A DNA stretch of 64,000 bases, from NCBI GenBank assembly GCA_017395065.1, contig JAFPWH010000011.1, forward strand, positions 1 through 64,000, written 5' to 3'. The translations under genes were made by a program, and so were the position numbers. The stretch comes from Clostridia bacterium (GTDB lineage Bacteria; Bacillota; Clostridia; Christensenellales; Aristaeellaceae). Every line of letters begins with the position of its first letter. Positions within the stretch are counted from its first letter, which is position 1. The notes beneath the pieces are model-generated. The model saw nothing but the letters and a program-made list of their open reading frames with translations, did no database searches and was not told the origin of the DNA. Shown piece after piece: positions 2,491-32,895 of the stretch.

Positions 2491-3276
2491 GAGGGCAGCC
2501 GCGTTTGCGGACTCGTCTGCAGGGGCAGACTCGGTCTTCAGCGTTTCCTCTGCCTCGAGCTCTTCATAGACGGTCGTCTGTTCGCTTGCTTCCGGCTGAG
2601 ATACAAGCTTGAGAACCGTGACGTCCAGGGGAAGCTTCCTGTACAGGCGCGCGCCTTCGCTTTGCAAAAGCTCGGCCTTGAACGCCTCGGTCTCCTCGGC
2701 GCTCAGGGGCGTTACGTTCTTTAAGCGAACGTAGACGGTCACGAAGTCTTCTTCGCTGTTCCTTGCGCGCGCGGTGTCCAGCGTGAGCGCGAGCCAGCTG
2801 TTCGCATATTCGCCGCTTCTCATCGAGATCTCGGCGAAGACGACGCTGTCCTTGGCGAAGGTCGCATAGACCGTGCCTTCGTTCATCGACTCGTACACGG
2901 CGGTCTTTGCGGCGACGCGCACGTAGCCGGAGACGAAGAGCGCCTCTTCCGTGGCCGCTTCTTCGACCGCTTCTTCGGCTTCTTCGGTCTCTTCGGTTTC
3001 TTCGACTTCCTCGGTCTCTTCGGATTCGTCGGCGTCTTCCTCCGCCGCTTCGTCCTCGGGAGCCGATTCGTCTTCTTCCGCTATGGGCAGGCCGTCCGGC
3101 TCGTCGCCGTCCGTCTGCTCCGTTGCTTCTTCTGCGTCGTCCTGAACGTCGTCCGGGACGATTTCCGCCACGACGGGCGTGGGATCGCCGCCGGCTGCGT
3201 CTTCCGCGAAGACGTCCAGCGACAGGCTGCCCAGCAGCAGGACTACTGCGAGCAATGTGCTTAAGAATCTGCGCAT
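1873..3276 (-). CDS. Secreted Ig-like tandem-repeat protein, N-terminal part ending at an in-frame TAG
   Basis: Residues 1-25 are a signal peptide (MRRFLSTLLAVVLLLG, then a VFAED cleavage region). Residues about 26-125 are an extremely Glu/Asp/Ala/Thr-rich low-complexity stretch. Next comes a beta-rich SH3-like region (SGYVRVAAKTAVYES, later VYVRLKNV), then the first Ig-like copies. The start at 3276 is preferred over an ATG-initiated extension to 3330 because AAAGGA lies about 8 bases before it and the signal peptide begins exactly there. The frame ends in TAG where the equivalent position in neighbouring repeats is CAG (Y-Q-W-Q), so one C-to-T change explains the stop. Likely role: cell-surface adhesin or matrix protein (inference from architecture). 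The domain class is clear; the function is not. Confidence 0.8.
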   Translation of the reverse strand: MRRFLSTLLAVVLLLGSLSLDVFAEDAAGGDPTPVVAEIVPDDVQDDAEEATEQTDGDEPDGLPIAEEDESAPEDEAAEEDADESEETEEVEETEETEEAEEAVEEAATEEALFVSGYVRVAAKTAVYESMNEGTVYATFAKDSVVFAEISMRSGEYANSWLALTLDTARARNSEEDFVTVYVRLKNVTPLSAEETEAFKAELLQSEGARLYRKLPLDVTVLKLVSQPEASEQTTVYEELEAEETLKTESAPADESANAAALAITTQPSNQKAALGGTAVFTVAASGATTYQWQVDRKDDKGFVNLSSTASYKGTATATLEVKATASTVQYDFRAVVGNGSDQVISKNVHLTIVEKPEITKQPVNASGAAGAVVTFTVTATDADSYQWQVDRADGNEFVNLGNTAKKLFESYKYRVVLSNVAGETVSDEVTLTIVEKPVITEQPANQSGAGGSTVVFTVKATDAENY

Positions 3277-3590
3277 GTTCCATTTCCTTTCTTGGCTTAG
3301 AATATACTTGTCAAGCAGCATATCATCCAAATTATATCATATCGCTTCGGCCGGTCTGTAGTTTTAACTTTTTCACAATAATTGAGAAGGCCGTTTCAGG
3401 GCCGTTTTAAGGCACTTTCCGGGGATCGACTTAACATTCTGAAAAATTAATGAAAATTTTACGGGCAAAAAGCGGGAATTTGTTGCCCGGCAGAGGGGAA
3501 AAACGGTGTATAATGGGGTATGCGGATGCCGTGGCCGCGGTCCGTGGGAAGCGGCCGCGCGTCCGAAAGCGTAAAGGAGAGGTAAGCGCA
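3277..3590. other. Divergent intergenic region with two probable promoters
   Basis: This 314-base gap separates the Ig-repeat gene (minus) from the NUDIX gene (plus). On the plus strand TTGCCC (3483-3488) and a perfect TATAAT (3509-3514) are 20 bases apart, longer than ideal. They lie about 75 bases before the NUDIX start. On the minus strand a TATAAT is read from 3336 to 3331 without a convincing -35 element. No RNA gene or other open frame was supported here. Confidence 0.45.
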
Positions 3591-4109
3591 ATGGACCGTT
3601 TTGACAGCCCGAAACAGATCGACATCCTGGGGGACAATCGCTTTGAGACCTTTACCGGCACCCGTTTCGGCAGCCGCGCCGTCGTCGTGCGGGACGGAAA
3701 AATACTGCTTTCGCACGAGGTCAATTCCGGCTGGTACCTGATCCCTGGCGGAGGGCAGGAGGCGGGGGAGACGCCGGAAGCTTGCTGCGTCCGGGAGGTC
3801 GAGGAGGAGACCGGGCTGATCGTGCGCCCGATAAGCTGCTTTCTGATCCTGAACGAATACTACGAGGACATGCGCTACGTCAGCGCTTATTTCGCATGTG
3901 AGCCGGTCGGCCGTGGGCAGATGCGCCTGACCCCCGCGGAGATAAGGCGCGGGGCAAGGCCGGAATGGCTCGGCCTGGACGAAGCCGTGGAGATATTCTC
4001 GCGCCACCGGGACTATGCCGACACCAGCGAGGAAAAGCGCGGCTCGTATCTGCGCGAGTACACGGCGCTCACGGAGTATCTTTCTCAGACGCAGCGGAAA
4101 GAGAAATGA
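3591..4109 (+). CDS. NUDIX hydrolase
   Basis: The 172-residue protein carries a complete NUDIX box at residues 54-76: G, five residues, E60, seven residues, then R68-E69-V-E-E-E-T-G-L. This provides the Mg2+-binding glutamates for hydrolysis of a nucleoside diphosphate linked to another moiety. The substrate cannot be told from the sequence. The start at 3591 is chosen because AAAGGAGAGG precedes it, although the frame is open further upstream. Its stop is only 14 bases from the start of the radical SAM gene, so the two are probably co-transcribed and possibly translationally coupled. Confidence 0.88.
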   Translation: MDRFDSPKQIDILGDNRFETFTGTRFGSRAVVVRDGKILLSHEVNSGWYLIPGGGQEAGETPEACCVREVEEETGLIVRPISCFLILNEYYEDMRYVSAYFACEPVGRGQMRLTPAEIRRGARPEWLGLDEAVEIFSRHRDYADTSEEKRGSYLREYTALTEYLSQTQRKEK

Positions 4110-4123
4110 TCGGGAGAACAGAA

Positions 4124-5134
4124 ATGTCGGACACTCTTCTCAATCTCGTGGTCGATCTGCATGGCTGCCCGAACCGCTGCAGACACTGCTGGCTCGGGCA
4201 CATGCCCAACGTCACGATGGAAAACGGCGCGGATCGTTTCATCGTGGATTATTTCGCGCCCTATTTTGACAGGATCGCGTTTTACAGCTGGCTGCGCGAG
4301 CCGGACTTTTGCGACGACTACGCCCAAAGGTGGCAAAGGGACATCGCGCTTTCGAAAAACGCGCAGCCCGAGCGCTTCGAGCTTGCAAGCTTTTACCGGA
4401 TCGTGCGGGACGAAAACTACATCCCCTTCCTGAAATCGGTGGGCGTAAAGAAGGTGCAGCTCACGTTTTTCGGCCTGAAGGCCACGCAGGACAGGTACGT
4501 GGGGCGAAAAGGCGCGTTTGAGGAAGTGCTTTCAGCGAGCCGCCTTCTGATTAAAAACGGCGTGATCCCGCGCTGGCAGTGCTTCATCAACGAGGAAAAC
4601 AAGGACGAGATCGTGCGCGTCTTTGCGCTTGCAAAAGAGATCAGGCAAAACGAATGCCCCGGGCTCGAGTTTTTCGTGCACGAGGGCAGCTGCGACGGCG
4701 AAAACCGAAAGCTTTATCCGATACGGATAAGGAAACAGGACATCCCCGAAGAGTTAAAAGAGGTGTATCTCGACCCCGGCGAACTGCTGAGCGAAAGGGA
4801 ATGCTGTGAGATGCTGAAATCCGACGACTCCTCTCCGTCTTTTCCCATCGGGGACACGATCACGCTCAACATTTCCAACCGCTTCGACGTGTACTACAAC
4901 TTCACCCACATGTGCCCGCCGTGGATCGTCGGCAACCTGAAAACGGACGCGCCCGGCGAGCTCGCAAGGCGCATAAAGGAGGGCGACACTTTTGCGCTCA
5001 GAAGGGCCGCGCAGTGCAGCTGGGCGCTTTTGGTGTCGAAGTACGGCGATTTCGCCTCCGAAAGGGCCTTCCGTCTCGACGACTACAAAATGTATCTGTT
5101 CAACAACGAGCTTGAGGATTCTTTCGCGCGCTGA
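4124..5134 (+). CDS. Radical SAM family protein
   Basis: The 336-residue protein has the radical SAM [4Fe-4S] motif C-x3-C-x2-C at C15, C19 and C22 (HGCPNRCRHCW), at the N-terminal end of a predicted TIM-barrel. Further cysteines occur in the C-terminal third (a CC pair, an MCPPW motif, and AQCSW), which could bind an auxiliary cluster. I cannot assign a SPASM or B12 domain with certainty. ATG 4124 is preferred because GGGAGA lies 7 bases upstream; another ATG at 4106 overlaps the NUDIX stop. Substrate unknown. Pairing with a NUDIX hydrolase suggests modification or turnover of a nucleotide-linked compound, but this is inference only. Confidence 0.75.
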   Translation: MSDTLLNLVVDLHGCPNRCRHCWLGHMPNVTMENGADRFIVDYFAPYFDRIAFYSWLREPDFCDDYAQRWQRDIALSKNAQPERFELASFYRIVRDENYIPFLKSVGVKKVQLTFFGLKATQDRYVGRKGAFEEVLSASRLLIKNGVIPRWQCFINEENKDEIVRVFALAKEIRQNECPGLEFFVHEGSCDGENRKLYPIRIRKQDIPEELKEVYLDPGELLSERECCEMLKSDDSSPSFPIGDTITLNISNRFDVYYNFTHMCPPWIVGNLKTDAPGELARRIKEGDTFALRRAAQCSWALLVSKYGDFASERAFRLDDYKMYLFNNELEDSFAR

Positions 5135-5137
5135 AAA

Positions 5138-5187
5138 AACGCGCCCGGCGGAGAGGCTGACCTCCCGTTCGGACGCGTCGCTTTTTA
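5138..5187. terminator. Bidirectional terminator between convergent genes
   Basis: An imperfect 17-bp stem (5140-5156 with 5161-5177, 4-base loop) is flanked by A6 on the left and T5 on the right. It sits between the stops of the radical SAM gene (plus) and the esterase gene (minus) and could act in both directions. Confidence 0.55.
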
Positions 5188-5195
5188 TATCCGGA

Positions 5196-6441
<1,246 letters not shown>

Positions 6442-7079: not shown

Positions 7080-7502
7080 TCATGCGTATACCAATTCGAA
7101 TTCTTCGCACACGACCGGCGTGTGTTCGGAAAATGTTTTATGGATCTGTGCAAGCTCAAAGGTCAAAAAGTCTCTGTGAACCCTTCTCCAATACTCCAAC
7201 GATCTGTCGCCTTCTCCTTCTTTATAGGCATGTTCCCGTGATACCTGATCGAATGCGGTCACATACACTTTCGTCGTCTTCACGATGCATACAGCCTCTC
7301 CCCTGGAATCGAGAATAACGCTGTAATCTCCTGCTTTGGGGATGGGTTCGTCTTCAGGCTGATACAGCTCATAGGCTGAACATGTGGCAGTCTTCACACC
7401 GCTTTTGACTAAAGCTGCCAGCTTGTCCGACGTGTCGTCAAACGACCACGCTTCATACTGTCCGGTTAATCCGGCCTTTCTCCATAACTCTTCTGCCGTC
7501 AT
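7080..7502 (-). CDS. ASCH domain protein
   Basis: The 140-residue protein fits the small ASCH family. Its N-terminal helix is W-R-K-A-G-L, followed by K-S-G-V-K-T-A-T, a P-K-A-G-D-Y-S-V-I strand, V-C-I-V-K-T-T-K-V, and a C-terminal E-Y-W-R-R-V-H-R-D-F helix. ASCH domains are related to PUA domains and are thought to bind RNA or modified nucleotides; some bacterial members are nucleases or amidohydrolases. GGAG lies 7 bases before the ATG. It shares the low-G+C composition of the GNAT gene, and the two may have moved together. The exact role is unknown. Confidence 0.8.
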   Translation of the reverse strand: MTAEELWRKAGLTGQYEAWSFDDTSDKLAALVKSGVKTATCSAYELYQPEDEPIPKAGDYSVILDSRGEAVCIVKTTKVYVTAFDQVSREHAYKEGEGDRSLEYWRRVHRDFLTFELAQIHKTFSEHTPVVCEEFELVYA

Positions 7503-27129: not shown

Positions 27130-27189
27130 AAAAAAAACCGGAGAGGATGCGCACGCGGCTAAACGCCGTATTTCACGCGCATCCTCTCC
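27130..27189 (-). terminator. Terminator overlapping the end of the ECF S-component gene
   Basis: A 13-bp perfect inverted repeat (27140-27152 with 27177-27189) encloses a second small hairpin. On the minus strand it is followed by T8. The outer arm 27177-27189 is inside the coding sequence of the ecfS-like gene and its stop codon (27159-27161) lies in the loop. On the plus strand T5 follows, so it may also end GH4 transcripts. Confidence 0.8.
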
Positions 27190-27845
27190 AGTTTTTCGCC
27201 GAAGGGCCTTGCAAACAGAAGCAAAAAGAACACGTTGGAAAGCACGTAGCTCACCGTGTACGGCACGGCGCTGACCAGCGCGGTCAGGTAAAGGCTCAGA
27301 TGGAACGAACCGTTGTACCACACGACCGTCCAAATGTCCATGATGAAGGAATAGAGCACGCCCGCAAACACGCCGTATACCAAAAGGAGTATGCGGCTCT
27401 TTTTGAGGGGCGAAGCGAGCAGCCCCGCGACGAAGCCGATCATGCCCCAGGAAAGCATCTGAAACGGCGTCCAGGGCCCCTGACCGAAGTAGAAGTTGCT
27501 CAGCGCCGCCGTGAGCGAGCCCGTCAGAAAGCCGGATTCCGCGCCCAGATACATGCCGGTCAGCACGGTAAGCGCGGTCACGGGCTTGAAAAACGGTATG
27601 AAACGCCCGACGATGGACAGCGCGGTCAATACCGACACGATGACCAGACGGCGCGTGCCGGTCTTTTTTTTGTCGAAACCGGAGGCGAACAGCACCACGG
27701 ACAAAACCGCCAGGCACAGCGAAATGAACGCGTAGCGCTTTTCGTGAAACACGGCGATCCCCAAAGCGACGAGCCCCGGCATGAGCACCCAGGGCACCGC
27801 AAAGCGGATCAGCTTCCTCAGGCGCGGATTTTTGATTGGCCTCAT
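27159..27845 (-). CDS. ECF transporter substrate-binding S component
   Basis: The 228-residue integral membrane protein has about six to seven helices. Its core (R-F-I-P-F-F-K-P-V-T-A-L, then G-M-Y-L-G-A-E-S-G-F-L-T-G, then F-G-Q-G-P-W-T-P-F-Q-M) is characteristic of the ECF S-component group that includes predicted cobalamin transporters. It is the vitamin-binding subunit of the importer formed with the ATPase and T protein encoded just upstream. Its ATG overlaps the ATPase stop (ATGA). Last gene of the five-gene operon. The substrate is not provable from sequence; corrinoid is favoured by the toroid/DUF4430 partner. Confidence 0.85.
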   Translation of the reverse strand: MRPIKNPRLRKLIRFAVPWVLMPGLVALGIAVFHEKRYAFISLCLAVLSVVLFASGFDKKKTGTRRLVIVSVLTALSIVGRFIPFFKPVTALTVLTGMYLGAESGFLTGSLTAALSNFYFGQGPWTPFQMLSWGMIGFVAGLLASPLKKSRILLLVYGVFAGVLYSFIMDIWTVVWYNGSFHLSLYLTALVSAVPYTVSYVLSNVFFLLLFARPFGEKLERMRVKYGV

Positions 27846-29464
27846 GCGCGCCTCCGATGGTCCTTGAGAAGCGCACAGGCCTGATCGACCGTGGAAAGAT
27901 TTGCGACCCTATCCCGCGTCATGCGGCTGACGGCGGTGGTGTAGAAGCTGTTGGTGCCGAAAAACGCCCGCGTTTCGTCGCTCGAAACGACCTCGCCCAG
28001 GAAAAACAGCGCGCAGCGGTCGGCGACCTCGGCGGCGAACTCCACGTCGTGCGTCACGATGAGCACGCTCGCGCCGCCCTGCCTTAGCTGCCGTACGATG
28101 TTTGCGAATTGCGCCTTCGTGTTTGCGTCCAGCCCCTTCGTGGGCTCGTCCAGCATCAGCAGGCGCGGCTTTTGCGAGAGCACCTTGGCAAGCGCGAGCA
28201 GCTGCTGCTGCCCGCCGGACAGGTCGTAGGGGTGCATGTCGTAAAGCTCCGTAAGATCGAAGGGGAAGGCAGACGTGTCCACGCCCTTCAATTCCTCGCG
28301 CACGCTGTTTCTCAAAAACACGGTCTGCGCGTCCTGCGGAAGGAGCGCCACGCAGTTTTTGTACAGATCCTGATTTTTGTAGTCCCTGATCCGCTTTCCG
28401 AAGACGCTGACGTGACCGGCGTAGGGCTTGCTCAGGCCGGAGGCGATCCTCAGCATCGTGCTCTTGCCGGAGCCGTTTCCGCCCAGCACGCAGAGGATCT
28501 CGTTTTCGTACAGCGTAAAGCTCGTGCCCCTGAGCACGTCCGGCAGTTTTTGCGCGTAACGGAAGTATACGTTTTTGAATTCCAGCGCCTTGCCTTCCGC
28601 GTGGACGCGGGGGCTTATTTCCGCCGCGGGCGGCAGAGCGTCAAACGCCGCTTCTATGAAGCGCCTTCCCTCGTTCACCGTAAGGGGACAGGGAAGAGGA
28701 GTGTCGAAACGCGCGTGCAGCCTTACGGCCGCGGGCAGATAGGGCAGAAATTCGCTGTCCTTTTGAAGTGCACAGGCGGTCTTTCGGGTTTCGCCGAAGG
28801 CGTACACGCGCCCTTCCCTGAGCGCGATGAGCTTTTGGCTGATCGGCAGCGCCTCCTCCAGCCGGTGCTCGATCATCACGACGGTCAGGGAAAGCTCGCG
28901 GTTGAGCTTTGCCACGGTCGAAATGAATTCGCCGGCGGCGATCGGGTCGAGCTGGCTGGTCGGCTCGTCCAGCAGCAGTATGTCCGGCTGCATCACCATC
29001 ACGGCGGCCAGGCTCAGAAGCTGCTTTTGCCCGCCGCTTAATTCGCTCACGCGCTTGTCGAACCAGCTCTCGATCCCGAAAAAACAGGCCATCTCGGCTA
29101 CGCGCCTTCTGATCTCCGCGCTGCTCAGCCCCAGGTTTTCAAGGCCGAAGGCGAGCTCGTGCCAAACCTTGTCGGTCACGATCTGCTGTTCGCTCTTTTG
29201 CATCACGAAGCCGATGCAGGAAGCGGAGACGGCGTCCGGCAATTCGTATACGCTCTGCCCGCCGTATTCGACGCGGCCCTTGAGCTCCCCAAGGGGCGTG
29301 AGCTCCTTTTTGAGGAGCTTGAGCAGCGTGCTTTTGCCGCTGCCCGTCGCGCCGCAAAGCAGCGCAAAGTCGCCCTTCTCGAGCGAAAAGCTTACGCCGC
29401 TGAGCGCCGGGTGGTTTTGGCCGGAATAGGTAAAGCTTACATCTTTGATCTCAAGTATTGCCAT
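27842..29464 (-). CDS. ecfA: ECF transporter ATPase with two fused ABC domains
   Basis: The 540-residue protein fuses the two ECF ATPases. Domain 1 has Walker A G-A-T-G-S-G-K-S-T, signature L-S-G-G-Q-K-Q and Walker B I-L-L-L-D-E-P-T. Domain 2 has G-G-N-G-S-G-K-S-T, L-S-G-G-Q-Q-Q and L-M-L-D-E-P-T. The Q-loop and E-H-R-L/T-H-D-V switch regions are present. It powers uptake by the S component through EcfT. Start 29464 begins with the usual MAILEIKDVSFTY and has GGAGA about 10 bases upstream. It overlaps the ecfT gene by 28 bases, suggesting translational coupling. Confidence 0.93.
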   Translation of the reverse strand: MAILEIKDVSFTYSGQNHPALSGVSFSLEKGDFALLCGATGSGKSTLLKLLKKELTPLGELKGRVEYGGQSVYELPDAVSASCIGFVMQKSEQQIVTDKVWHELAFGLENLGLSSAEIRRRVAEMACFFGIESWFDKRVSELSGGQKQLLSLAAVMVMQPDILLLDEPTSQLDPIAAGEFISTVAKLNRELSLTVVMIEHRLEEALPISQKLIALREGRVYAFGETRKTACALQKDSEFLPYLPAAVRLHARFDTPLPCPLTVNEGRRFIEAAFDALPPAAEISPRVHAEGKALEFKNVYFRYAQKLPDVLRGTSFTLYENEILCVLGGNGSGKSTMLRIASGLSKPYAGHVSVFGKRIRDYKNQDLYKNCVALLPQDAQTVFLRNSVREELKGVDTSAFPFDLTELYDMHPYDLSGGQQQLLALAKVLSQKPRLLMLDEPTKGLDANTKAQFANIVRQLRQGGASVLIVTHDVEFAAEVADRCALFFLGEVVSSDETRAFFGTNSFYTTAVSRMTRDRVANLSTVDQACALLKDHRRRA

Positions 29465-30315
29465 TTGAGCGCGTCTCCGATCTCGATCAATGAGGGCAGC
29501 AGGCACAAAAGAAGGTACGCCCCGTAAGCCGCCGCGCGCGCGGGCGTGAAGAGCAGGGGGTCGGTCGCGGGATAGTAGTTAAAATCCAGATGCCCAAGCC
29601 CCATCAGGATACACACCGCCGCGCCGCTTAGCAGCGTAAGTATCGTCAGCAGCGCGTCCTTTCCCCTGAAACGGTAGGGGGAAAAGCAGGTGCGTTTGCC
29701 GATCCCGTAGCCCCGCGCCGCCATGCTGTCCGCCGTCACGATGCCGTTTTCCAGCGCCCAGCTCACCATGATCGAAAACACGCTGAGCTTGAGCCTTATG
29801 GCGTCGATGACGTTGTCCTCCCTGTACTGTCCCATGGCCCTTTGCGCCGCGTCCACGTTTTTAGCCTGCGCCTTGAACAGGGGCACGTACCTCAGCGCCA
29901 TGCTGACCAGCAGCGCGAGCTTCGACGAAACGAGCCCGAAGAGGTACAGCAGCTTGTCGCTCGTGATGATCGCCGAGAAGGAGCGGAACCAGTACAGCAC
30001 CGAAACGATCATCGCAGCGGCGGATATGCCGTACAGGAGCGCTTCGAGGGTGACGGGATTGTCGTTGAGCACGAACAGCACCGTGACGCCGTTATGCTGA
30101 AACAGCGGGTTGATCAGTGAAAGCCCGATAAACAGCATAAGACTGAACAGATGCGTGCCCCGCTGGGAGGAACGTGTCCGTATGCAGTAGAGCAGCACCG
30201 AGCCCAGCATGGACAGACTTAGCAGCACCGGGTCGGACGCGAACATGGCGATGCCCGCTGCGGCCAAAAAGTACACGAACACGCTCAGGGGGTTGAATTC
30301 GTCGAAGGCGTTCAA
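29437..30315 (-). CDS. ecfT: ECF transporter transmembrane T component
   Basis: The 292-residue protein has several predicted membrane helices and the cytoplasmic coupling motif A-A-R-G-Y-G (the Ala-Arg-Gly motif of EcfT/CbiQ that docks on the ATPases). A second coupling region is Q-Y-R-E-D-N-V-I-D-A. The start is TTG at 30315 with AAAGGAG 7 bases upstream; no ATG is available in that position. It links the S component to the fused ATPase. Confidence 0.92.
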   Translation of the reverse strand: MNAFDEFNPLSVFVYFLAAAGIAMFASDPVLLSLSMLGSVLLYCIRTRSSQRGTHLFSLMLFIGLSLINPLFQHNGVTVLFVLNDNPVTLEALLYGISAAAMIVSVLYWFRSFSAIITSDKLLYLFGLVSSKLALLVSMALRYVPLFKAQAKNVDAAQRAMGQYREDNVIDAIRLKLSVFSIMVSWALENGIVTADSMAARGYGIGKRTCFSPYRFRGKDALLTILTLLSGAAVCILMGLGHLDFNYYPATDPLLFTPARAAAYGAYLLLCLLPSLIEIGDALKWQYLRSKM

Positions 30316-30348
30316 GCGTTTGCTCCTTTGCAGGCGAAAATTGTTTGG

Positions 30349-31968
30349 CTATTTGCCGCCCGGGCTCTGCTCCCCGTCCCCGGACGGCTTTGTGAGGTAG
30401 GGCTGTACGTCCTGGCCGATGTCCATCGAATACATCCACTGAACCACGTCCCCGTCCTTCAGTCTGTATTCGCCGGCGTTCACGCTCGGGGCGACCCCGT
30501 TTACGTAGTACATCCAGCCGGACTGCTCGCCGTACTCCAATTCGTAGATGTAGGCGATGCCCTTCACGTAGGTCATGGCGATCGCGGAGCCCTGCGCGTC
30601 CAGCTGAATGCCGTACTGCCGGGCGGCCTCGGTCAGGATCTGGTAGGCGCTGTCGCCCGAGGAGATCTCAAAGCGCGTTTCGGGCAGGATCACGCCGTCT
30701 TCGGGGATATACGCGCGCCTTGCGTGGTCGTAGGCGATCGTGTCGCAGCGGATGGACATCGTGACGGCGCCCACGGCATCCTGCTTTTCGGCCCTTTTGC
30801 CGCTGTAATAGGACGCGGTGGATTCGAAATTCGTAAGCAGTATCACCGCGCTCAAAAGCACGAACGCGCCGCCTATGAACAGGTAGTTCTTCGGGCTTTT
30901 TTTGCCCCTGATCCTCAAAAGCACGCAGCAAAACACGCTCAAGAGCGCGAGAAAAGCGATCGCGACGGTCTTGTAGGAGACGCCGGACGTCTCGCTCCGG
31001 ACGGCCTTTTCCCTGTGCGTGTCCGTAAACAGGTACAGGCCGCTCAGCCCGTTCTGATACCGCCAGAGGCTCACGCACGCCGTGAAGGCCTGCGTCGTCG
31101 CGGTCGCGTTGAAAGGACCGCCCAGCACGTGGCTGAAGCTTCCGTCGTCAAGCCTGTAGAGCATGAGCCCGTCGTAGGCGCTGTGTCCGTTTTTCAAAAA
31201 GCGTTGGTCTTTGAAAGGGTCTACGCCCAGCGAGCACAGCGCGATGATCACCTGCGCGGTGCTTTCGGGATTGACGGTCGCGCCGAAACCCATGAACGCG
31301 CCGTCGCTTTGCTGCTTCGTGCTGAGAAAGGCAAGCGCCTCTTCGCAGGCGGAACGCACCGCTTCGTTTTCCGCGCAGTGCGGGGCGAGCGCCTGCAGCG
31401 TCATCGCGGTCACGTCCGTATCGGAATAATTGCCCATGACCGCCCAGCCGCCGTCGCTTTTGCGCAGGGAAAGCAGTGCGGAGACCATTTCTTCAGCGCC
31501 CGGGCCGCCGCCTGTGCGCGTGTTGTTCACAAGATGCAGCCCGTAGACGTAGCTCATGATGCCCTGCGCGCCCGCGCTCTGGTTAAGCGCCTTCTGTACA
31601 TATTCGTCCCCGGCCTGCCCACAGGCGGTCAGCGCCAGCGCGTATTTGAGCTCCTCGGAGGCGGAAAGCACGCGGCCTTCGCTTAGCGCGTTCTTCAGGG
31701 AAGCGCAGTAGGCCTGCCTGTCCAATTCGCAGCCGAACTGCAAAAGCGAGACGACGTACCATTCCGCGCCGCCGGCGGGGGAGGGGATGAGCTCGTTTTT
31801 TATCCAGTCGTCAAGGCTTTCCCTGCCCGAGCGCCGGATCAGGAAGTTCAGCAACTCGTCCGCCGTCTGCTCGGGCGTAAGCCCATCATCGCCAAGGCAG
31901 GAAAGCCCCGACGCGGCGACGGCCAAAAGCGTCAGCAGGCAAAGAAATTTCACGGTGATTCGTTTCAT
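30349..31968 (-). CDS. Membrane protein with alpha-toroid (prenyltransferase-like) and DUF4430/transcobalamin-C-like domains
   Basis: The 539-residue protein has a signal sequence (MKRITVKFLCLLTLLAVAAS). An extracellular helical region of about 270 residues follows, with squalene-cyclase/prenyltransferase-type repeats (R-K-S-D-G-G-W-A-V-M-G, K-Q-Q-S-D-G-A-F-M-G-F-G, R-L-D-D-G-S-F-S-H-V). Two closely spaced membrane helices come next (about residues 330-350 and 362-382). A final beta-domain contains Y-E-L-E-Y-G-E-Q-S-G-W-M-Y-Y-V-N-G and L-K-D-G-D-V-V-Q-W, matching DUF4430 (transcobalamin-like C-terminal, PF14478). Both domains would face outward. This is the domain order of animal intrinsic factor and transcobalamin. 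It lies 33 bases before ecfT, so it is likely a surface ligand-capture subunit of the importer (inference). Confidence 0.75.
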   Translation of the reverse strand: MKRITVKFLCLLTLLAVAASGLSCLGDDGLTPEQTADELLNFLIRRSGRESLDDWIKNELIPSPAGGAEWYVVSLLQFGCELDRQAYCASLKNALSEGRVLSASEELKYALALTACGQAGDEYVQKALNQSAGAQGIMSYVYGLHLVNNTRTGGGPGAEEMVSALLSLRKSDGGWAVMGNYSDTDVTAMTLQALAPHCAENEAVRSACEEALAFLSTKQQSDGAFMGFGATVNPESTAQVIIALCSLGVDPFKDQRFLKNGHSAYDGLMLYRLDDGSFSHVLGGPFNATATTQAFTACVSLWRYQNGLSGLYLFTDTHREKAVRSETSGVSYKTVAIAFLALLSVFCCVLLRIRGKKSPKNYLFIGGAFVLLSAVILLTNFESTASYYSGKRAEKQDAVGAVTMSIRCDTIAYDHARRAYIPEDGVILPETRFEISSGDSAYQILTEAARQYGIQLDAQGSAIAMTYVKGIAYIYELEYGEQSGWMYYVNGVAPSVNAGEYRLKDGDVVQWMYSMDIGQDVQPYLTKPSGDGEQSPGGK

Positions 31969-32025
31969 TCGTTCAATGCACCTTCGCGGTGTGCGGCGGA
32001 AAGCATCCGCCGGTCCGTATGCAAA

Positions 32026-32049
32026 GTGGAGGGGCCGATACCCCTCCAC
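32026..32049 (-). terminator. Hairpin between the first two genes of the ECF operon
   Basis: Perfect 9-bp stem (32026-32034 with 32041-32049), 6-base loop. On the minus strand only TTTG follows, so it is probably an attenuating or mRNA-stabilising hairpin after the first gene, not a full stop. Confidence 0.6.
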
Positions 32050-32106
32050 ATCGGTCGGCTGCTTTTTCACGGCAGCCGCAAGTTCCTCGGCGCGGGTACG
32101 GAAAAC

Positions 32107-32769
32107 TTATTCCACCACACAGACCGGAGGCACGAGGTTCAGACTGTCGCTCACGGCGCTGATCAGCTTTGCGCCGTCGGGCAGGTTGAAGCTCACATTT
32201 CCTTCGGCGTCGGTGACGAACTCGGTCTTTTCGCCGTCGATCACAATGACCGCGCCCTCTACCGGCACGCTCACGGGCATGAAGTTTTCGTCGAAGGTGA
32301 CCATGCTGAGCTTGAGCGTGACATTGCCCGCGCTCACAGCGGCCTGGTCAAAGAAGCTGTAAGCGTCGCTCCAGCCGACGAGGTCGGTGTACACGTAGGC
32401 GTAGACGCGGTCGCCGTTCGTCACGGGATCGGTAAGGCCGTAGGACATGGTGTCGTTTACGTAGTAGCCGTAGCTGCCGCCGTTCTCGACGCCCCAGAGC
32501 TTGGCGAGGGAAAGGCCCCAATCGCCGTAGGCGCTCAGGTAGCCCGCTTCCGCGCCGCCGTCGTAGGCGAACTCGTGTGCAAGATAGAGCGCGTCGTTTA
32601 TGGTCAGCGCGCCGTCCGCGTCCGCGTCGCTCAGCGCGATCGGGCATTCGGCAAGCACGAGGCTGCCGTCGGAGATGGTGACGTATACCACGGGGGTTTC
32701 TTCGGCGCATGCGGCGAACAGGGCGCACAAAAGCGCGGCGCAAAGCATAAGCACGGTTAACTTCTTCAT
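32107..32769 (-). CDS. Small exported protein with EF-hand-like and DUF4430-like segments
   Basis: The 220-residue precursor starts MKKLTVLMLCAALLCALFAACAEE. The cysteine before AEE could be a lipoprotein cysteine, although the lipobox is imperfect. The mature part has a calcium-loop-like D-A-D-A-D-G-A-L-T-I-N-D-A motif. A segment with G-G-S-Y-G-Y-Y-V-N-D and T-N-G-D-R-V-Y-A-Y-V resembles the end of DUF4430 domains. A carboxypeptidase-regulatory-like strand set follows (V-E-G-A-V-I-V-I-D-G, D-A-E-G-N-V-S-F-N-L). AAAGGAG lies 10-11 bases before the ATG. First gene of the ECF operon. Likely a surface ligand-binding accessory protein (inference). Confidence 0.7.
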   Translation of the reverse strand: MKKLTVLMLCAALLCALFAACAEETPVVYVTISDGSLVLAECPIALSDADADGALTINDALYLAHEFAYDGGAEAGYLSAYGDWGLSLAKLWGVENGGSYGYYVNDTMSYGLTDPVTNGDRVYAYVYTDLVGWSDAYSFFDQAAVSAGNVTLKLSMVTFDENFMPVSVPVEGAVIVIDGEKTEFVTDAEGNVSFNLPDGAKLISAVSDSLNLVPPVCVVE

Positions 32770-32866: not shown

Positions 32867-32895
32867 ATCTTATCAGCTTTCCACTGTTTCGTCAA
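32867..32895 (-). promoter_or_regulatory. Promoter of the ECF importer operon
   Basis: Minus strand: TTGACG (32895-32890), 17-base spacer, TAAGAT (32872-32867). The leader to the first ATG is only about 90 bases, too short for a cobalamin riboswitch, and none is recognised. Confidence 0.65.

Follow-up and report, generated by a model that had tools for sequence, protein, structure and literature searches.

A clostridial ECF importer operon with transcobalamin-like surface proteins and its probable role in corrinoid uptake

The operon and the closest described systems

Exported toroid-SLBB proteins of Gram-positive bacteria were predicted to be B12 scavengers by Burroughs et al. in 2007, who placed their genes with CbiO- and CbiQ-like genes and often with that of a second SLBB protein, and predicted that animals acquired their B12 carriers from such bacteria (PMC1796856). 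Two further systems serve as points of comparison: ECF-CbrT of Lactobacillus delbrueckii (6FNP), an energy-coupling factor (ECF) importer for which transport of cobalamin and cobinamide was shown (PMC5997447), and the animal carriers transcobalamin, intrinsic factor and haptocorrin, in which a toroid is followed by a beta-domain. Here we describe a five-gene operon, named sol operon after its first gene (27159-32769, minus strand), of a Clostridia bacterium from gut or rumen. The window, the whole stretch of DNA that was analysed, comprises positions 1-64,000 of the forward strand of contig JAFPWH010000011.1 (GCA_017395065.1). The operon very probably encodes a dedicated ECF-type importer whose substrate is cobalamin or a related corrinoid, together with capture proteins that face outward and would pass the ligand to the S component. 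The genes, their folds and outward topology, the B12-riboswitch control in relatives and the co-occurrence pattern were established by computation.

All five genes lie on the minus strand. The first is sol (32107..32769), whose 220-amino-acid product is exported, as indicated by a signal peptide, and was assigned by its structure model and fold matches. It is followed by tor (30349..31968), whose 539-amino-acid product combines a signal or N-terminal helix, an alpha-toroid, a membrane hairpin and a DUF4430 domain, as supported by Pfam, model and fold search. The remaining genes encode the transmembrane coupling subunit EcfT (29437..30315, TTG start; Pfam and operon context), EcfA with two fused ATP-binding cassette (ABC) ATPase domains by Pfam (27842..29464), and a CbrT-like S component whose N terminus carries a hydrophobic extension of some 60 residues (27159..27845). 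The genes are tightly packed, with an overlap of 4 nucleotides (nt) between A and S and of 28 nt between T and A. An initial annotation of this DNA, made from the letters alone, had proposed five minus-strand genes, all of which were recovered at their proposed positions; its 539-residue protein with toroid, two membrane helices and DUF4430 was borne out by Pfam, a family profile, the structure model and hydropathy.

A per-species genome scan gave at least 567 confirmed relatives of tor, the best 80 of which were kept as loci, almost all of them from metagenome-assembled clostridia and many from rumen and gut. Within the same family, tor relatives occurred in 12 of 150 genomes, most of them with all five genes in an unchanged order. 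The arrangement sol-tor-T-A-S was complete and in order in 43 of the 80 loci and T-A-S-sol-tor was found in 7, most of the remaining loci being truncated or small variants. In the 50 loci flanked by 4.5 kb or more on each side, T was the most frequent neighbour (47), followed by A (45), S (44) and sol (41). Since one conserved operon encodes EcfT, the ATPases and an S component, the system is an ECF-type ABC importer. In a survey of 247 genomes of the order, in which the toroid and DUF4430 parts of some counted tor matches came out as separate pieces, tor was present in 31 and the S family in 33 (Fisher p ~4e-31, a value that overstates the case because related genomes are not independent, the co-occurrence pattern itself being independent of it). 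Toroid-DUF4430 genes thus co-occur with this S family, a point that the initial annotation had raised for checking, in 29 of the 31 tor genomes, and on shared contigs the two genes are usually about 3 kb apart. Three genomes of the survey (G226, G247 and G301) have the toroid match within open frames of about 2000-2300 residues and the DUF4430 match in a separate frame.

The idea of a capture module is not new in outline, because Burroughs et al. predicted that outline: their systems likewise have an exported toroid N-terminal to a transcobalamin C-terminal-like domain, a second exported SLBB paralogue, and CbiO and CbiQ genes. The hairpin between the two halves, the S component and the riboswitch control are not described in the accessible part of that paper, and the hosts considered there usually lack B12 synthesis, whereas the present genome encodes it (PMC1796856). 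What is new, as far as the literature shows, is the link to cobalamin riboswitches, the assignment of S to the CbrT type, the hairpin architecture with its outward-facing domains, the identification of sol and the ranking of structural matches; a search for later work on bacterial transcobalamin-like proteins found only the 2007 paper, subscription journals being largely outside that search.

Riboswitch control and the S component

The substrate class is decided by riboswitch evidence in relatives. The Rfam Cobalamin model was scanned over 50 whole genomes carrying the operon, with matches mapped by contig range and checked by reading the sequences; 17 of the 50 genomes had a match that fell in the operon leader, 15 of them above the cut-off. 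In addition, a covariance model was built from 14 leader elements of the operon. Applied to the 80 loci, it recovered 51 elements, spread over 49 of them; each is in the sense orientation and immediately precedes sol, T or tor, and these 49 loci contain no covariance-model element at any other place. The result is circular for the 14 elements used in building the model, but not for the 37 others or for the Rfam results; direct Rfam scans of the locus DNA confirmed leader riboswitches in loci that include L021, L034, L039 and L070, all outside the training, and found an adenosylcobalamin (AdoCbl)-II riboswitch in the leader of L038, also outside it. Altogether the operon-derived model gave 58 matches in 1.5 Mb: beyond the 51, six lie before the operon in loci of the same family (L021-L025 and L027), and the seventh is the riboswitch already known to precede btuF and its operon in this genome.

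A cobalamin riboswitch in the operon leader thus places the operon of relatives in a cobalamin regulon. The initial annotation had named linkage to the riboswitch of a different vitamin in other genomes as an outcome that would count against a corrinoid substrate, and the vitamin found there was cobalamin. No other vitamin riboswitch was found at the operon in 26 loci scanned with all Rfam models; a flavin mononucleotide (FMN) riboswitch in L036 lies 3 kb beyond the operon on the opposite strand. Loci L041 and L052 contain two cobalamin riboswitches each: the first precedes sol-tor, and the second, located between tor and EcfT, precedes an A frame of about 870-880 amino acids, which is long enough for a fusion to S. 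Seven cobalamin riboswitch matches were counted in the genome of locus L089 (G191).

The S component points to the same substrate. The best solved relative of the S profile is 6fnp (ECF-CbrT; E 1.8e-14), matched over profile positions 62-227, which cover the whole S domain, and the only other solved match is 4hzu (E 0.001). Pfam matches of S are to ECF S-component families, and NCBIfam holds no model naming it. By its sequence relationship over the S domain, S is of the CbrT type, and the operon resembles ECF-CbrT in S-component family and ECF mechanism. The two systems differ in that a single ECF module serves CbrT and other S components alike (PMC5997447), whereas EcfT and the fused EcfA are dedicated here, and in that the N-terminal extension of S and the co-encoded exported capture proteins belong to the present operon.

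A different substrate would be cobalt or nickel, imported as by CbiMNQO, with sol and tor as metal-handling surface proteins. Regulation alone is compatible with this alternative, as some cobalt transporters are preceded by B12 riboswitches, so that these riboswitches also control cobalt importers (PMC2667541). A DUF4430-fold protein, RUMGNA_00854 (3u7z), was deposited as a 'putative metal binding protein', and sol has an EF-hand-like loop, both in keeping with metal handling. EcfT has a weak Pfam match to CbiQ (23 bits versus a cut-off of 25), but similarity to CbiQ is common to EcfT proteins generally. No match to the substrate-specific subunits CbiM or CbiN was found by Pfam among the five operon proteins, S has its best match in CbrT, a cobalamin S component, and both exported proteins have cobalamin-carrier folds. 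Metal import is thus very unlikely.

Folds and topology of the two exported proteins

In tor, the DUF4430 domain (PF14478, transcobalamin beta-like; 30427..30657, minus strand) spans residues 438-514 and was detected at E 2.8e-16, with 60.2 bits versus a curated cut-off of 23.8, so that the initial call of this domain is upheld; in a search of the genome with PF14478, it was the sole match (64 bits). The alpha/alpha toroid (residues ~30-320; 31009..31881, minus strand) is weak in single-sequence Pfam searches (SQHop_cyclase_C, E 0.001, below the cut-off) and becomes clear in a family profile: built from 11 tor proteins, it matches toroids of the squalene-cyclase type at E ~1e-11. The AlphaFold2 model (pLDDT 77) has a helical barrel over residues 30-305. 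When this model was compared with all solved structures using Foldseek, every one of the 15 top-ranked matches was a transcobalamin, an intrinsic factor or a haptocorrin, aligned over about 520-540 columns that span both domains, and prenyltransferases and cyclases ranked next. These matches have TM-scores of 0.36-0.43 (normalised by query) and root-mean-square deviations of at least 7.5 A, so the relative placement of the two domains is not established by them. The toroid and beta-domain fold of the animal carriers is therefore present in tor by Foldseek, at moderate model confidence. Of the superposition on transcobalamin that the initial annotation had envisaged, the presence of the toroid and the animal B12 carriers as closest solved structures over both domains held; the placement of the domains relative to each other was modelled with low confidence. 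Across 88 tor proteins, the toroid residues D185, E235, Q239 and H280 are invariant, as are SGW, VN, D507 and Y513 in DUF4430.

Taken alone, the toroid would fit a squalene-hopene or terpene cyclase-type enzyme, with the operon concerned with isoprenoids. The best sequence matches of the toroid profile are drimenyl diphosphate synthase and squalene-hopene cyclase, and VIA-align ranks the same two first for the toroid alone; it ranked toroid enzymes for tor on that one domain, and animal carriers were not among the 50 matches listed. Class II cyclases have DXDD as their catalytic motif. This motif is not kept in tor, which has D-x-D-V at residues 183-186, and the single toroid is joined to DUF4430 and a hairpin in operons with cobalamin riboswitches and an importer; over the whole tor model, the animal B12 carriers rank first. 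A cyclase function is, accordingly, the most improbable of the explanations that we weighed. A weak partial match of the toroid to the NCBIfam SCO2321 family membrane protein (NF053823; 31 bits, E 1.1e-7) is far below the curated cut-off of 300 bits, and that model states no function; a literature search on SCO2321-2325 gave nothing relevant.

Between the two halves, model and hydropathy delineate a membrane hairpin (30844..30972, minus strand) composed of a first transmembrane helix (TM1, residues 333-353), the basic loop RGKKSPKN and a second helix (TM2, from residue 360 to 373 or 375). Two hydrophobic linker segments are present in 87 of the 88 tor homologues, and in all 87 the short loop between them bears two or more net positive charges, in agreement with the initial remark that this hairpin sets tor apart from the animal proteins. 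According to the positive-inside rule, a basic loop is cytoplasmic. With the conserved hairpin and its basic loop oriented in this way, the toroid and DUF4430 both lie outside the cell. The animal carriers resemble tor in domain order and are its closest solved structures over both domains, but they are soluble, secreted and without a membrane segment between the domains, whereas in tor the hairpin separates the halves; moreover, profiles detected no sequence similarity, and tor is operon-linked to an importer and to a second beta-domain protein. We propose that tor works like the animal carriers but do not place it in their family, because the hairpin separates its domains and sequence homology was not detected.

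The second beta-domain protein is sol. The initial annotation had called it a short exported protein; it is exported, and that description was incomplete, as its first domain has the transcobalamin beta-domain fold. The sol model has a pLDDT of 95.4. For residues ~24-134 (32368..32700, minus strand), designated the transcobalamin beta-like (SLBB) domain from model and fold search, the top ten structural matches are haptocorrin and transcobalamin beta domains (Z 10.7-12.2), followed by a Ruminococcus gnavus protein (Z 10.4), with unrelated folds from Z 7.7. One matched entry, 5np4, is an isolated human beta domain with bound cyanocobalamin, and a beta domain alone can therefore hold B12. The transcobalamin-like SLBB clade is defined by a beta-hairpin after the helix of the beta-grasp (PMC1796856), and the sol model contains this hairpin (helix 57-68, then strands 77-82 and 85-91). 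At the sequence level, PF14478 gave no match above cut-off in nine sol homologues, and the sol profile found no transcobalamin in the PDB. Profile-profile comparison of sol with tor aligned only the signal peptide or a short weak stretch around YYVN...GD; the relation of sol was therefore settled by the fold search. The second, C-terminal domain (residues 136-220) is immunoglobulin (Ig)/carboxypeptidase-regulatory-like. His65 is invariant in 74 sol homologues, and an EF-hand/dockerin-like loop, D48-x-D-x-D52-G (DADADGALTIND, residues 48-59; 32593-32628, minus strand), suggests calcium binding from its motif; both features are regarded as leads only.

Corrinoid supply in this genome and the proposed mechanism

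Several observations weigh against corrinoid capture and import by this operon. The leader of sol in the window contains no riboswitch by Rfam at gathering and permissive thresholds or by the operon-derived model with filters off, and the leaders of two copies from the same genus (L018 and L019) also lack one. A sigma-70-like promoter, TTGACG-17-TAAGAT, lies about 100 nt upstream of sol (32867..32895, minus strand), a consensus match of about chance density. The arrangement of domains in the tor model has low confidence (pTM 0.59), and toroid and DUF4430 profiles find no animal carrier in the PDB among matches up to E 10; the link between tor and the animal carriers is therefore one of fold. 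NCBIfam groups S weakly with the FolT family. Finally, the genome encodes corrinoid biosynthesis (cbiD, cbiH, cobQ, cbiB, cobT, cobU and cobS) and also has BtuFCD under a strong cobalamin riboswitch (minus strand, positions 7262-7456 of locus L029, G000 contig C76:148000-156500), so that the sol-tor-T-A-S importer is not the sole corrinoid source, and import through it probably saves or supplements synthesis. The btuFCD-like operon also encodes a second BtuF-like protein and a CbiK-like protein with a signal peptide. One clear B12-binding protein, an MtgC/MtbC-type corrinoid protein, was found in the genome.

A paralogous ECF operon lies on another contig of the same genome (L030, G000 contig C38:8000-15314; minus strand), with EcfT at 5220-6077 and A and S joined in one frame at 2680-5661; its EcfT is 36%, EcfA 45% and S 37% identical to those of the sol operon. 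About 90 nt before its EcfT, Rfam gave a divergent cobalamin riboswitch match of 26.8 bits, below the cut-off of 31.5, in which a B12-box-like sequence, AGTCGGAATACTC, is readable; the operon-derived model gave no match there. The stretch read (C38:8000-15314) contains neither sol nor tor. This riboswitch-headed pair of T and A-S fusion lends some weight to an alternative in which the ECF module imports corrinoid while tor and sol do not bind it, serving as structural or regulatory partners or binding another ligand. CbrT, too, works with an ECF module alone (PMC5997447), and SLBB domains are thought to bind diverse ligands (PMC1796856). Set against this, in most loci sol and tor head the operon, nearest to the riboswitch, 29 of the 31 tor genomes also have S, both sol and tor have transcobalamin-like folds, and the four toroid residues D185, E235, Q239 and H280 are invariant. 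We consider non-binding partners improbable, if somewhat less so than metal import.

Collectively, these observations support the initial interpretation of a corrinoid capture module, for which we propose the following mechanism. EcfT and the fused EcfA would form the ATP-driven module, and S, being of the CbrT type, would be the membrane-embedded corrinoid binder. Anchored by its hairpin with toroid and DUF4430 facing outward, tor may clamp a corrinoid between the two domains in the manner of transcobalamin, and sol, which is exported and is likewise transcobalamin beta-like, probably helps to capture the ligand or covers it. The corrinoid would then be handed by tor to S and carried into the cell by S as ATP is hydrolysed. 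We infer from the computed features the binding of the ligand, the clamp formed by tor, the transfer to S and the part played by sol. More speculatively, the operon may specify an ECF importer with a true surface receptor, in which the tor clamp and the sol beta-domain dock on S, and animal intrinsic factor and transcobalamin may have their origin in this bacterial lineage, whose transferred form would have lost the hairpin or never carried it; we advance this wider proposal only tentatively.

Regulation, the type of S component and structure now tie a large uncharacterised family of gut and rumen clostridial operons, with at least 567 relatives, to B12 uptake; in 2007 the proposal was based on gene context. 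These operons suggest how many clostridia compete for corrinoids. ECF importers are commonly regarded as working without an extracellular binding protein, and the operon calls into question whether they can do without a capture protein. Defined bacterial proteins also make it possible to test whether human intrinsic factor and transcobalamin had the bacterial origin proposed for them.

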